From Pseudoxanthomonas broegbernensis (GTDB lineage: Bacteria; Pseudomonadota; Gammaproteobacteria; Xanthomonadales; Xanthomonadaceae): a stretch of DNA of 64,000 bases. The notes under the pieces are model-generated. The model was not told the origin of the DNA. It made no database searches and saw nothing but the letters and a program-made list of their open reading frames with translations. Shown here piece by piece: positions 3,735-35,225 of this stretch (position 1 is the stretch's first letter; every line of letters starts with the position of its first letter). The DNA is taken from positions 248,001 through 312,000 of the forward strand of contig NZ_JACHGU010000005.1 in the NCBI RefSeq assembly GCF_014202435.1, written 5' to 3'. A program made the translations under genes and the position numbers.

Positions 3735-5105
3735 ATGAACCACTGGCTTCCGGAACGCACGGGGGCCGGGCTGTTCTACATGGCCGCCGCGCTGCTGGTG
3801 CTGGCATTCCTCACCGGTGGCGGCGCGTCCGACCGCGGCATCGGCGATGCGGCCACCCAACTGCTCGCCTGCGCCGTGCTGCCCCTCGCGCTCCATTGCC
3901 TGTCCAAGCGCGCGCAGCCGATACCGCGGCTGCGCTGGATCCTGCTGCTGGCCACGCTGGTCCCGGCGGGCATCGCGCTGCAACTGGCCGCCGGCCTCAC
4001 CCGCACGCCCTGGGCCACCGAACGCGCGCTGTGGTCGATCCTGCCGGCGCTCGCCGCCTTCGTGTCGGCCCTGGCCCTGCCGCGGCGGCGCCAGGTCCAC
4101 CTGGCCTGGACGATCGTGTCGCTGGCCGCCGCCAGCCTGATCCTGGGCTACCTGCAACTGGGCGCACCGCAGGACAGCATCCTCAACCCGTTCCCCGAAC
4201 TGCCGCCGGTGCTCAACGGCGTGTTCGCCAACCAGAACCACCAGGCCACCGCCATCGGCATCGCCCTGGTGCTGCTGGCCGCCTGGGCGTTCGATCCACG
4301 CCGCCGCCTGGACGAGGAGGACGCCCCGCCGCATTCGCGCACGGCCGGGCTGATCGCGGCCGGCGGGCTGGCCTTGCTGCTGCTGGTCGCCCTGCCCCTC
4401 GTCGGCTCGCGGGCCATGGCCCTGATCAGCATCGGCGCCCTGTTGCTGGTGCCGGCCGCCACCGGGTGGCTGCGGCAGCGCCTGGGCCGACGCGGGCGGC
4501 GCAGGCAGGGCACCTTCCTGCTGCTGGGAGGGCTGGTGGCCGGCGCGCTGGTGCTGGTGGCGCTCAGCGGCTGGATCAAGGTCGACTACTCCTCTGAAAC
4601 GCGGATCGCGATGGCCCGGGCCACCGCCGCCCTGGCCGCCGATGCCATGCCCTGGGGAAGCGGCATCGGCAGCTTCGTCCAGTGGTTCGACGCGCACACC
4701 CCGGACGAGGCGCTGCAATGGGCCTACGTCAACCACGCCCACAACGAGTACGCGCAGTGGTGGCTGGAAAGCGGCATCCTCGGGCTGGCGTGGATCGCGC
4801 TGCTGGCCGTGGGCATGGCCTGGAGCCTGCCGCGCTGCGCATGGCGCGCCGACGCGCAGCCGGACGGGCTGGCCGCCGGGAGCTGGCTCGCGGTGGCGGT
4901 GGTGCTTGCCCACAGCTTCGTGGACTACCCGCTGCGCACCCCGGCGATCATGACCGTGGCCGCCTTCCTGGCCGGCGTGGCGGCGCAGGCCGCGGCGCTT
5001 CGCCTCGGCGCGCCTCCCCTCTCCCCGGCGGTGCGCCGATCCGGTACCCCGGCGGAGGAATCCATGCTCGGCCGCGACCCGGCGCCATGGCCCGGGTCCG
5101 ATTGA
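3735..5105 (+). CDS. O-antigen ligase/polymerase-family membrane protein (Wzy_C type)
   Basis: A 456-residue polytopic protein with about 10-12 predicted membrane helices. The large-loop signatures of the WaaL/Wzy superfamily are visible: FANQNHQATAIGIAL around residue 170 and NHAHNEYAQWWLESG around residue 333, the latter containing the conserved His/Glu region used by glycan polymerases and ligases. The ATG at 3735 was chosen over upstream in-frame starts because the first helix follows directly and the upstream stretch overlaps the hairpin. The product either polymerises repeat units or transfers the finished glycan. The locus also has an EpsG-type protein (14216), so one of the two is probably the polymerase and the other a ligase or a polymerase for another glycan. 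Confidence 0.8.
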   Translation: MNHWLPERTGAGLFYMAAALLVLAFLTGGGASDRGIGDAATQLLACAVLPLALHCLSKRAQPIPRLRWILLLATLVPAGIALQLAAGLTRTPWATERALWSILPALAAFVSALALPRRRQVHLAWTIVSLAAASLILGYLQLGAPQDSILNPFPELPPVLNGVFANQNHQATAIGIALVLLAAWAFDPRRRLDEEDAPPHSRTAGLIAAGGLALLLLVALPLVGSRAMALISIGALLLVPAATGWLRQRLGRRGRRRQGTFLLLGGLVAGALVLVALSGWIKVDYSSETRIAMARATAALAADAMPWGSGIGSFVQWFDAHTPDEALQWAYVNHAHNEYAQWWLESGILGLAWIALLAVGMAWSLPRCAWRADAQPDGLAAGSWLAVAVVLAHSFVDYPLRTPAIMTVAAFLAGVAAQAAALRLGAPPLSPAVRRSGTPAEESMLGRDPAPWPGSD

Positions 5106-24664: not shown

Positions 24665-25009
24665 CGGTCGGTTCCCATCCTGCGTGTGCGGTCGTGTCGG
24701 CAGGTCCTACGCAACGGCCGTGCCAACTTCGCGCATGCGCGGCGGCGCGGCGCGCGAGCCTTTGCGCCCAAGGGGTTCGCGAGATTGCGGCGGCGGTGCG
24801 CGGCCGCGGCGGCTGGCCATGCGGGGGACCGCCCGCACCGTGCAGGTGCACCGGCGCACTCCCGTTGTGCATTGCAGCGAAGGCATCGGCATCCGCGCCG
24901 GCTTGCCGCGGCGCGCGCGCCCCTCACCTTGCTGAAGGCGGCGGAGGCGACCGCGGCGGATTGACCCACGTCAATGACGCTGGTCCGAGGCGGCCCCTAG
25001 CCTGTCCGC
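24665..25009 (+). other. Divergent nirB/hemN intergenic region
   Basis: 345 bases between two divergent genes. Apart from the FNR-type palindrome at its hemN end (24961-24974) and the hemN -10-like TAGCCT, no gene, RNA or repeat could be recognised. The nirB promoter must lie here but no convincing hexamer pair was found. Confidence 0.6.
24961..24974 (+). promoter_or_regulatory. FNR-type box before hemN (perfect palindrome)
   Basis: TTGAC-CCAC-GTCAA is a perfect inverted repeat of the Fnr/Anr type. Its centre (24967.5) is 41.5 bases before 25009, next to the hemN ATG at 25010. A TAGCCT hexamer at 24998-25003 sits where a class II FNR -10 should be. It lies 297 bases from nirB and is assigned to hemN-fnr. 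Confidence 0.8.
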
Positions 25010-32336: not shown

Positions 32337-33002
32337 TCACGCGCGCCGCAACTGGAAGTCGGCGAATCCCTCGCCCAGGGTGGCGCCGTCCGGCGGCGTC
32401 CACGGCGCATGCCGCGACGGGTCCAGGCGGCACTCCTGCACCACCCAGCGGCGCACGCCGCGGCGCGCCAGTTCGCGGCCCAGCGCATGCAGCTCGGGTT
32501 CCGGGTACAGGTCCGGGTGCCAGGTGGTGCGGCATTCGTAGTCCACACCGCTGTCCAGCAGCCAATCCAGCGCATCCCACACCGCGGCGGCGCCGAGGCG
32601 GCGGCCGGTGATCGCGGCATGGCGCGCAGGCGGCGCCTTGATGTCCAGGCCCACCCAGTCCAGTTGCGGCAGCAGCCGGGCCAGGCGCAGCGGGTACATG
32701 CCGCCGGTATGCAGGGCGGTGGCGAAGCCCAGCTCGCGCACCACGCGCAGGGCGCCGCCCAGCCCCGGTTGCAGGGTCGGCTCGCCGCCGGAGAAGACCA
32801 CCCCGTCGAGCAGGCCGCGCCGCCGCCGCAGGAACGCGACCGCCCGTTCCCAGGCGATCGCGCGTTCGCCGCGCGCGGGCAGCAGTTCCGGGTTGTGGCA
32901 GTAGCCGCAGCGCCAGGGGCAGCCCTGCAGGAACAGGACCGCCGCCAGCTTTCCCGGGAAGTCGATCGTGGTCAGCGGCAGCATGCCGCCGATCCGGATC
33001 AT
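32337..33002 (-). CDS. nrdG: Anaerobic ribonucleotide reductase activating enzyme
   Basis: A 221-residue radical-SAM activase that puts the glycyl radical on class III ribonucleotide reductase. The Fe-S/SAM site is C-x3-C-x2-C in GCPWRCGYCHNPE near residue 30, followed by VVFSGGEPTLQ and VGLDIKAP. The wording (LTTIDFPGKLAAVLFLQGCPW) places it with the larger NrdG subtype found beside NrdD proteins of the Thermotoga/Pseudomonas type. Its ATG overlaps the stop of the small glycyl-radical gene by four bases (ATGA), so the two proteins should be made in similar amounts. Confidence 0.92.
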   Translation of the reverse strand: MIRIGGMLPLTTIDFPGKLAAVLFLQGCPWRCGYCHNPELLPARGERAIAWERAVAFLRRRRGLLDGVVFSGGEPTLQPGLGGALRVVRELGFATALHTGGMYPLRLARLLPQLDWVGLDIKAPPARHAAITGRRLGAAAVWDALDWLLDSGVDYECRTTWHPDLYPEPELHALGRELARRGVRRWVVQECRLDPSRHAPWTPPDGATLGEGFADFQLRRA

Positions 33003-33187
33003 GCCGCGCGTGCCGCTCCGGCCAGGACGGGGGCCGGCTCGGCGAAGAAGCGGCGTTCGGCATGCTCGCCCTGCTTGCCGATGTTGAAGCTGGAGACGGG
33101 ACGGTGGTAGCCCATCACGCGGGTCCAGACTTCGCAGGGCTGGCGTTCCTCGTCGCGCAGGGTGGGGGCAAGGGTGGCGGTGGTCAT
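32999..33187 (-). CDS. Detached glycyl-radical domain of anaerobic ribonucleotide reductase
   Basis: A 62-residue protein equal to the C-terminal tail of NrdD: RQPCEVWTRVMGYHRPVSSF contains the glycyl-radical motif R-V-M-G-Y with the radical Gly at residue 24, and NIGKQGEHAERR follows. In ordinary NrdD this segment is joined to the zinc-finger end of the catalytic chain. Here it has its own ATG and a strong AGGAG site 7 bases upstream, 219 bases after the nrdD stop. It is in the same frame as nrdD, but two in-frame TGA codons lie between. It should act in trans, like the spare glycyl-radical domain YfiD for pyruvate formate-lyase. Confidence 0.85.
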   Translation of the reverse strand: MTTATLAPTLRDEERQPCEVWTRVMGYHRPVSSFNIGKQGEHAERRFFAEPAPVLAGAARAA

Positions 33188-33259
33188 GGGTGTGCTCCTG
33201 TCGGGTTGGGCCGACCATCGGGAGATGGGCGGTGGGTGAAACGGATGGCGCTGGTTTCA

Positions 33260-33279
33260 CGCTGGCCGCGCAGCCAGCG
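33260..33279 (-). other. Hairpin in the nrdD / glycyl-domain spacer
   Basis: CGCTGGC and GCCAGCG form a 7-bp stem around a 6-base loop within the 219-base spacer between the two parts of NrdD. A second hairpin lies at 33352-33367. They could be processing or RNA-stability elements or chance GC-rich stems. Confidence 0.35.
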
Positions 33280-33351
33280 CGGCTCGACGCCGACGGACGA
33301 CCGGCCGGAGGCTGCCGGACGCTTTCCCGGCGGGGCCGGCCATCCGGCCGT

Positions 33352-33367
33352 GGCGAAGCGTTTCGCC
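33352..33367 (-). other. Hairpin just downstream of the nrdD stop
   Basis: GGCGAA-GCGT-TTCGCC, a 6-bp perfect stem with a 4-base loop, about 40 bases after the nrdD stop codon on the minus strand. There is no U-run, so it is not a typical terminator. Confidence 0.35.
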
Positions 33368-33406
33368 GGCACGTCGTCCTGTTCCGGCGGCGCGGGAACC
33401 ACGGCC

Positions 33407-35152
33407 TCAGGCCGCGCCCGCCAGCGCGCGCCGCTTCTGCGCCAGCTTCTCCTCGTCGCAGCGCGGGCAGAATGCGTGCTCGCCTTCCAGGTAGCCGTGC
33501 ACGGGACAGATCGAGAAGGTCGGGGTGATGGTGATGTAGGGCAGGCGGAAGCGGGTCAGCGCGCGCCGCACCAGGTCGCGGCAGGCCGCGCCGCTGGAGA
33601 CGCGCTCGCCCATGTACAGGTGCAGCACGGTGCCGCCGGTGTAGCGCGACTGCAGCGCCTCCTGCCGCTCCAGCGCCTCGAACGGGTCGTCGGTGAACCC
33701 CACCGGCAGTTGCGATGAATTGGTGTAGTAGGGCTTGTCGTCGCTGCCGGCCTGGAGGATGTCCGGCCAGCGCCGGCGGTCCTCCTTGGCGAAGCGGTAG
33801 GTGGTGCCCTCGGCCGGGGTGGCCTCCAGGTTGTAGAGGTGGCCGCTGCTTTCCTGGAACCGCACCATCCTCCCGCGGATGTGGTCGAGCAGGCGCAGGG
33901 CGAAGGCGTGGCCCCAGTCGCTGGCGAGGTCGTGGGCGTCGTGGGTGAAGTTGCGGATCATCTCGTTGATCCCGTTCACGCCCAGCGTGGAGAAGTGGTT
34001 GCGCAGGCTGCCCAGGTAGCGCTTGGTGTAGGGATACAGGCCGTCGTCGATGAGCTTCTGCACCACCTGGCGCTTGATCTCCAGGCTCTGCCGGCCCAGT
34101 TCCAGCAGCTCGTCCAGGCGCGCGTACAGCGCGGCCTCGTCGCCGCGGTACAGGTAGCCCAGGCGCGCGCAGTTGACCGTGACCACGCCCAGGCTGCCGG
34201 TCTGCTCGGCGCTGCCGAACAGGCCGTTGCCGCGCTTGAGCAGTTCGCGCAGGTCCAACTGCAGGCGGCAGCACATCGAGCGGATCATCCCCGGGTCCAG
34301 CTCGGAGTTGATGAAGTTCTGGAAGTACGGCAGGCCGTACTTGGCGGTCATCTCGAACAGGCGTTGCGCGTTGTCCGACTCCCAGGGGAAGTCGGCGGTG
34401 ATGTTGTAGGTGGGGATGGGGAAGGTGAACACCCGGCCCTTGGCGTCGCCCGCGCTCATCACCTCGATGTAGGCGCGGTTGATCATGTCCATCTCGGCCT
34501 GCAGGTCGCCGTAGGCGAACGGCATCTCCTGCCCGGCGATGAACGGGGTCTGCCCGCGCAGGTCGGCCGGGCACACCCAGTCGAAGGTGAGGTTGGTGAA
34601 CGGGGTCTGGGTGCCCCAGCGCGAAGGCACGTTGAGGTTGTAGATCAGCTCCTGGATGCACTGCCGCACCTGGTCGTAGGACAGCGCGTCCTTGCGCACG
34701 AACGGAGCCATGTAGGTGTCGAAGGAAGAGAACGCCTGGGCGCCGGCCCATTCGTTCTGCAGCGTGCCCAGGAAGTTGACGATCTGGCCCACCGCCGAGG
34801 ACAGGTGCTTGGGCGGACCGGCCTCGACCCGGTTGGGGATGCCGTTGAGCCCCTCGTACAGCAGGGTGCGCAGCGACCAGCCGGCGCAGTAGCCGGAAAG
34901 CATGTCCAGGTCGTGGATGTGCAGGTCGCCCTCGCGGTGGGCCCGGCCGATCTGCGCCGGGTAGATCCGCTCCAGCCAGTAGTTGGCGGTGACCTTGCCG
35001 GCCACGTTGAGGATCAGCCCGCCCAGCGAGTAGCCCTGGTTGGCATTGGCGTTGACCCGCCAGTCGGCCCGGCTGAGGTACTCCTCGACCGTGCCCACCG
35101 GGTCCACCATCGGCGGCCCAGGGTGCCGTCGCACGCTGTCCTGAACGTCCAT
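33407..35152 (-). CDS. nrdD: Anaerobic ribonucleoside-triphosphate reductase, catalytic part lacking the glycyl-radical tail
   Basis: A 581-residue class III ribonucleotide reductase that makes deoxynucleotides without oxygen. There is no N-terminal ATP-cone; the protein begins near VEEYLSRADWRVNANANQGYS. Visible features are HIHDLDMLSGYCAGWSLR, the thiyl-cysteine stretch LGVVTVNCARLGYLYRGDE, and the C-terminal zinc finger CPVHGYLEGEHAFCPRCDEE. It then stops at ALAGAA*, just where the glycyl-radical segment should begin. That segment is a separate gene at 32999-33187. The ATG at 35152 was chosen because FNR and NrdR sites lie just upstream; an inner ATG at 35110 is also possible. The catalytic chain alone should be inactive. 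Confidence 0.92.
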   Translation of the reverse strand: MDVQDSVRRHPGPPMVDPVGTVEEYLSRADWRVNANANQGYSLGGLILNVAGKVTANYWLERIYPAQIGRAHREGDLHIHDLDMLSGYCAGWSLRTLLYEGLNGIPNRVEAGPPKHLSSAVGQIVNFLGTLQNEWAGAQAFSSFDTYMAPFVRKDALSYDQVRQCIQELIYNLNVPSRWGTQTPFTNLTFDWVCPADLRGQTPFIAGQEMPFAYGDLQAEMDMINRAYIEVMSAGDAKGRVFTFPIPTYNITADFPWESDNAQRLFEMTAKYGLPYFQNFINSELDPGMIRSMCCRLQLDLRELLKRGNGLFGSAEQTGSLGVVTVNCARLGYLYRGDEAALYARLDELLELGRQSLEIKRQVVQKLIDDGLYPYTKRYLGSLRNHFSTLGVNGINEMIRNFTHDAHDLASDWGHAFALRLLDHIRGRMVRFQESSGHLYNLEATPAEGTTYRFAKEDRRRWPDILQAGSDDKPYYTNSSQLPVGFTDDPFEALERQEALQSRYTGGTVLHLYMGERVSSGAACRDLVRRALTRFRLPYITITPTFSICPVHGYLEGEHAFCPRCDEEKLAQKRRALAGAA

Positions 35153-35166
35153 CCCATCCCCTTGAT

Positions 35167-35182
35167 CCACAACATGTGGTGG
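35167..35182 (-). promoter_or_regulatory. nrdR box: NrdR-like box 1
   Basis: CCACAACATGTGGTGG, a 16-bp near-palindrome of the NrdR type, overlapping the predicted nrdD transcription start (about 35177). Its centre is exactly 31 bp (three helical turns) from box 2, the usual spacing of NrdR pairs. NrdR represses ribonucleotide reductase genes when nucleotides are plentiful. Confidence 0.7.
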
Positions 35183-35197
35183 GATCCTGGCACTTGA

Positions 35198-35213
35198 CCA
35201 CCACATGTTGTTT
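35198..35213 (-). promoter_or_regulatory. nrdR box: NrdR-like box 2
   Basis: CCACCACATGTTGTTT, matching box 1 in reverse over 14 bases. It sits between the predicted -10 and the FNR box of nrdD and overlaps the FNR box by two bases, so NrdR and Fnr binding may compete. Confidence 0.7.
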
Positions 35214-35225
35214 GACCTGGATCAA
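35212..35225 (-). promoter_or_regulatory. FNR-type box before nrdD
   Basis: TTGAC-CTGG-ATCAA, one mismatch from perfect symmetry. 59 bases separate it from the nrdD ATG. A CAGGAT hexamer (35189-35184) is in the -10 position for a class II promoter starting near 35177. Confidence 0.78.

Follow-up and report, generated by a model that had tools for sequence, protein, structure and literature searches.

Glycyl-radical loop of a class III ribonucleotide reductase encoded by a separate small gene in Pseudoxanthomonas broegbernensis and its relatives

The window analyzed here is a 64,000-nucleotide stretch of the Pseudoxanthomonas broegbernensis genome (contig NZ_JACHGU010000005.1, positions 248,001 to 312,000 of the forward strand, from an assembly of 32 contigs that is 99.99% complete). 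It carries an operon for a class III, or anaerobic, ribonucleotide reductase (RNR) in which the catalytic chain, NrdD, ends just behind its zinc finger and the glycyl-radical loop lies on a small gene of its own, placed between nrdD and the activase gene nrdG. The features of the locus, in window coordinates, are as follows.

33407..35206, minus strand: nrdD, encoding the catalytic chain, which lacks the glycyl-radical loop (PF13597 positions 2-534, NF006126 positions 97-651); its end behind the zinc finger is common to the relatives
34268..34273, minus strand: finger-loop cysteine pair of MCCR, Cys312-Cys313 (numbered from 35206), candidate thiyl site, from the alignment
33458..33508, minus strand: zinc-ligand candidates C567, H570, C580 and C583, retained on the large chain and invariant in 34 rows
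33188..33406, minus strand: 219-base spacer that separates nrdD from the small gene and holds one more in-frame TGA
33195..33199, minus strand: AGGAG, Shine-Dalgarno site that serves the small gene, 7 bases upstream of the ATG, read from the sequence
32999..33187, minus strand: free glycyl-radical peptide, 62 residues, ATG start (PF13597 positions 531-562)
33110..33112, minus strand: predicted radical glycine codon, Gly26 in RVMGYHRP, read from the sequence
32337..33002, minus strand: nrdG, activase of the NrdG2 type and the radical S-adenosylmethionine (SAM) family, 221 residues (TIGR02495, 193 bits, cut-off 131)
35212..35225, no strand assigned: TTGACCTGGATCAA, an exact match to the FNR/Dnr-type box, upstream of nrdD, from a motif scan

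The large chain is an RNR barrel of the NRDD family (580 bits against PF13597), and the small chain scores 31.6 bits against the same profile (cut-off 26.2), the only family it matched at E up to 1. A search of solved structures with the 62-residue sequence, also at E up to 1, returned no match. The glycine of the loop is the residue that holds the radical in class III RNRs. In this operon it is the small open reading frame (ORF) that supplies the RVxGY loop, which the definition of class III places on the barrel chain and which the barrel chain here does not have. The MCCR motif of the large chain (residues 311-314) is invariant in 34 aligned NrdD sequences and corresponds to the finger-loop motif described in PMC9669993. 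The four zinc-ligand candidates are so named by analogy with known class III enzymes. The NrdD frame encodes 599 residues when counted from the first in-frame ATG, at 35206, and 581 when counted from the ATG at 35152; the latter, which the preliminary description of the locus implies, is the likelier start, because the FNR/Dnr-type box needs room upstream of the gene. The chain closes with SICPVHGY...CPRCDEEKLAQKRRALAGAA, just past the zinc finger, at a TGA (33409-33407). In the window both parts share one frame, with two TGA codons between them, one being the stop of nrdD and the other codon 650 when the frame is read through, and the stop of the small gene overlaps the start of nrdG as ATGA. 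A preliminary description of this locus had reported the early nrdD stop, the 62-residue gene with its own ATG and AGGAG site 219 bases downstream, the shared frame with two TGA codons and the ATGA overlap, and each of these was reproduced in the assembled sequence.

Two pieces in one frame with two TGA codons are also what a local pseudogene, or a sequencing error that cuts nrdD in two, might leave behind. This explanation is refuted by the survey of relatives, and we regard its probability as negligible. Among the 80 closest named bacterial loci (the best 80 of at least 589 confirmed), 77 are split at the same joint and two are intact, one from a Desulfovibrio metagenome-assembled genome (MAG; L065) and one from Actinotalea (L070); the last, L061, could not be classed, as its contig stops 138 bases past the nrdD stop. 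In a sample of the window's own family NrdD is present in 14 of 395 genomes, and all 14 have the split. The preliminary description had proposed looking in relatives for the small gene beside an NrdD lacking its tail, and had taken relatives that are always intact as the sign of an error; the opposite was found. The split also occurs in complete plasmid records, which likewise speaks against an error, as do the ATG and Shine-Dalgarno site that the small gene has of its own and the purifying selection on it described below. The arrangement as first described therefore stands, with the correction that other genomes share it and that the small gene already bears a name in RefSeq, where it is called nrdD in three different plasmids.

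When all 108 loci are counted, duplicates included, 101 are split, four intact (the further two being L101 from Acidiphilium and L105 from Actinomyces), two without the motif (L016 and L103) and one unresolved. Some of the MAGs bear phylum labels (Omnitrophota, Elusimicrobia and others) that may reflect contamination. The split form is present in many Proteobacteria, Pseudomonas species among them: nine loci titled Pseudomonas are all split, P. aeruginosa itself lying outside the set. The operon of Cupriavidus necator H16 is also split, into chains of 676, 66 (H16_RS32675) and 239 residues, and NrdDG is reported to be essential for complete denitrification in this organism (PMC2864759, citing Siedow et al. 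1999). Two loci have other layouts. The Allochromatium vinosum plasmid pALVIN01 carries a lone glycyl-radical gene annotated as nrdD (L103:3501-3710), with neither an nrdD barrel nor nrdG in the annotation within 3.5 kb of it, and at L145 (G701:C4) the small gene and a neighboring 231-residue ORF, which has an activase-like motif, lie some 9 kb away from nrdD.

The spacing of the two genes bears on whether they are translated apart. Of 94 distinct loci, 5 did not fit the tail pattern and were left out; in the other 89 the small gene lies -41 to 219 bases behind nrdD, with a median of 31. Outside these 89, L027 has a gap of 298 bases. When the real frame is read, 93 of the 94 loci have an ATG with a Shine-Dalgarno site within reach, compared with 4 and 0 for the two shifted frames, a control that is fairer than the spacing survey itself, in which starts were picked by Shine-Dalgarno strength and are biased accordingly. 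Frames and gaps thus vary while the ATG and Shine-Dalgarno site of the small gene persist, which argues for independent translation, and by sequence criteria two polypeptides are made from the split loci. The same data decide against a single fused protein, whether it arises because the ribosome reads through the stop, shifts frame or bypasses the spacer, or because the spacer is removed as an intron or intein. Such a product would fit the 31 loci of the 89 in which both parts share a frame; however, the other 58 have them in different frames, with gaps that range from overlaps to more than 200 bases, and nearly every small gene has its own start signal. We reject this explanation as very improbable.

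The pooled ratio of nonsynonymous to synonymous change (pN/pS) of the bacterial peptide core is 0.28 over 112 loci, a few intact ones included, from 2924 non-independent pairs with pS of at most 0.6, and by this measure the core is under purifying selection. Of 95 split loci that were scanned, 92 have an activase-like ORF behind the small gene. Coupling of the kind first reported in the window is common in these relatives: by the start-codon criterion of our script, a possible activase start lies at or before the small-gene stop in 53 of the 92, which is an upper bound (20 ATGA, 8 GTGA or TTGA and 25 other ATG overlaps), and a gap separates the two genes in the remaining 39.

Taken together, these observations suggest a functional two-chain class III RNR with radical storage in trans, a reading to which we assign a probability of roughly 0.87. 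In this model the large chain would combine the barrel with the thiyl cysteine and the zinc finger, and the 62-residue peptide would provide the radical loop. With two polypeptides and the glycine only on the small one, the glycyl radical would have to act in trans: NrdG would place the radical on the peptide glycine, with the peptide either free or already docked, and docking would set this glycine beside the thiyl cysteine of NrdD. Docking, activation and catalysis are steps that we infer. A close parallel is the small free radical carrier of pyruvate formate-lyase (PFL), YfiD/GrcA, and its counterpart Y06I of phage T4, which also act in trans, as proposed here from the gene structure. Y06I is the phage version of the autonomous glycyl radical cofactor. 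However, the peptide described here belongs to PF13597 and not to PF01228, and its partner is, by inference, NrdD.

This parallel raises the question of whether the peptide is a spare part of the YfiD kind, serving only enzyme that oxygen has damaged, instead of an obligatory subunit. A protein of this kind does exist for PFL, and viruses have the peptide without NrdD, as described below. The partner of YfiD/GrcA, however, has a glycine of its own and is rescued when this is damaged, whereas the large chain of the split bacteria has no radical glycine at all, and the peptide must therefore serve every NrdD molecule. We consider a mere spare part improbable. The genome of P. broegbernensis encodes one NrdD in a PF13597 search, and a whole-genome search with PF01228, the PFL-type glycyl-radical domain, gave no match, so that no PFL-type enzyme was found for the peptide to serve. 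Other RNR matches in the genome are to TIGR02504, one above the cut-off and two pieces below it.

A predicted fold of the read-through protein (34-sequence alignment) has a mean predicted local distance difference test score (pLDDT) of 74 and a predicted template modeling score of 0.75. Residues 681-690, before the glycine loop, reach a pLDDT of 94, the next blocks 77-78, and the linker lies below 50. The best Protein Data Bank matches of this model in Foldseek are class III RNRs.

Several points weigh against the two-chain model. The read-through model and its Foldseek matches do not prove docking; the root-mean-square deviation to 8p2s_B, which going by length seems to have an ordered radical domain, is 6.0, compared with 4.3 to 8p2s_A, which seems to be without one. 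The idea that the large-chain tail and the peptide head carry complementary charges was not supported (mean net charges of -0.4 and -0.9). The split is also a feature of one branch and not of class III enzymes at large. In a sample of the phylum, PF13597 was found at E ≤ 0.001 in 57 of 398 genomes, and 41 of these have one stop-free match reaching profile position 562. In 15 the glycine piece lies on a different ORF (12 genomes identified through a match of its own, together with G685, G752 and G602), and the remaining genome, G725, has a weak PF13597 match below the cut-off. Finally, the history of intact and split forms within the main clade is poorly resolved. Intact and split sequences are intermixed in the tree, whose deep forks are unresolved; given its starred branches the state must have changed at least twice, and the minimum of 6 changes compares with a mean of 6.7 when the split label is shuffled, so that we claim neither a single origin nor a direction of change.

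Outside this clade, a second split is found at the same joint. An E. coli-like NrdD from another class of the phylum (G685; L146:3058-5151) scores 103 bits against our own profile, where most E. coli-type sequences score 120-143, and its frame is closed by a TAG (4954-4956) behind its CxxC pairs. A 60-residue ORF that starts at ATG 4969 contains RITGYLVGTLDRFNNAK and overlaps the start of the next gene, which by eye reads like NrdG. G752 resembles G685 in its profile matches. Other E. coli-type NrdDs are among the 41 unbroken ones, and splitting at the joint of zinc finger and glycine loop therefore appears, most simply, to have happened at least twice.

The single-chain NrdD/NrdG systems of E. 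coli, T4, Thermotoga maritima and Prevotella copri share with this locus the barrel, the finger-loop cysteine, the zinc finger, the RVxGY loop and the radical-SAM activase; the difference is the cut between the zinc finger and the glycine loop, which places the loop on a polypeptide of its own. RNRs of other classes are known with similar divisions. In the class II NrdJa/NrdJb of Pseudomonas aeruginosa and the class I alpha chain of phage Aeh1, the cut runs through the catalytic chain itself, whereas here only the radical carrier is separated. The distribution of these two catalytic chains over two genes each is described in PMC3267527 and PMC4009431. In the class III literature, as far as it was covered, barrel and radical glycine belong to one chain, and no mention of a separate gene for the glycine loop of NrdD was found in the portions consulted of PMC4493059, PMC9669993, PMC5645315, PMC9531940, PMC11226230, PMC3267527, PMC11528403, PMC3019208, PMC2864759, PMC11194802, PMC2795772, PMC4009431, PMC4860495, PMC4390871 and PMC8463856, a set that excludes key older papers. 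We therefore do not claim the split NrdD as unreported, and RefSeq labels the small gene nrdD.

Peptides related to the one in the window also occur alone in viral records. A search of viral contigs with the window peptide kept the best 80 of 99 stretches (L161-L240), and over their whole records 79 of the 80 have the glycine piece of PF13597 without the NrdD barrel; the exception, G793 (L168), has both in one record. The 49 records with enough flank were searched for PF04055 (radical SAM) and PF02867. PF02867 was found in none of the 49, and PF04055 in two, G793 and, once, G854, leaving 47 of 48 without a radical-SAM match when G793 is set aside; viral records are often fragments, and such absences prove nothing by themselves. 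In 16 records one or two large neighbors each were scanned against PHROG, which identified virion, tail, packaging or lysis genes in eight (L161, L163, L165, L173, L174, L196, L216 and L238) and DNA polymerase, helicase or integrase genes, which do not prove a virus, in four (L200, L208, L229 and L234). A metallophosphoesterase was found in L212 and an unknown family in L194, and the sampled neighbors in L187 and L222 matched no family. The window peptide and that of L161 both match phrog_4132, whose function is unknown.

The cores of the bacterial and the viral peptides (96 and 58 distinct sequences) have identical majority residues, R..CE.WTRVMGYHRP...N.GK..E...R, although the search pattern itself demands [MV]G[YF].RP...N.GK and hence the glycine; the core cysteine is present in 93% of the viral peptides. 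The pN/pS of the viral core is 0.30 (390 pairs), and an ATG with a Shine-Dalgarno site is found in the real frame of 35 of 58 viral small genes (shifted frames 4 and 0). Ten viral copies (L169, L184, L185, L201, L207, L211, L213, L218, L219 and L228) have a cysteine-rich head ahead of the radical loop, which may form a separate metal-binding module; L173 and L222 were excluded from this count, their head being an upstream frame. A known protein of similar kind is AJP62049.1 of the ANMV-1 virus, likewise a lone viral protein, annotated as anaerobic ribonucleoside triphosphate reductase, with CxxC pairs and an SRIVGYLRPV loop; it differs in coming from an archaeal virus, in its length of 144 residues and in its identity of 45-55% over the matched loop. 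A close relative was sought in isolated phage records, where only distant matches were found. Of a different kind is a faecal scaffold deposited as phage (MT835493; L241:1033-3441), where a single open frame encodes a full NrdD with a C-terminal domain that is, judged by eye, glutaredoxin-like.

Since tiny related peptides stand alone in viral records, the radical carrier may be a part that can be swapped. We tentatively propose, at somewhat less than even odds, that the class III glycyl-radical segment is an exchangeable subunit and that phages carry the peptide alone (about 40 to 150 residues), loading host NrdD with a fresh carrier through host NrdG and so raising or restoring the synthesis of deoxyribonucleoside triphosphates during infection. 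The viral peptide might instead act as a decoy, blocking the host enzyme by binding to its NrdG or NrdD: nearly all of the records searched show neither an NrdD barrel nor a radical-SAM match, and a lone docking peptide could compete. We find this unlikely. The listed viral loci keep the RVMGY loop, though the seeds and pattern favor that; outside the loop the core shows the same conservation as the bacterial one, and selection on the two looks similar, while a decoy need not keep the glycine. The lone viral copies suggest an unannotated phage route (PHROG 4132) into host nucleotide metabolism.

A glycine on a separate peptide would allow activation, oxygen damage and repair to be studied apart. 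After cleavage by oxygen, only a cheap peptide would need replacement, and a synthetic peptide could bring labels or unnatural residues to the radical site, which bears on radical transfer from glycine to cysteine.

The FNR/Dnr-type box upstream of nrdD has company in the window. Boxes with at most one mismatch to the consensus number nine, against 1.14 expected, and none of 100 shuffles reached nine; four of them lie at 24961, 30351, 35212 and 36697. The window is perhaps an anaerobic gene cluster.

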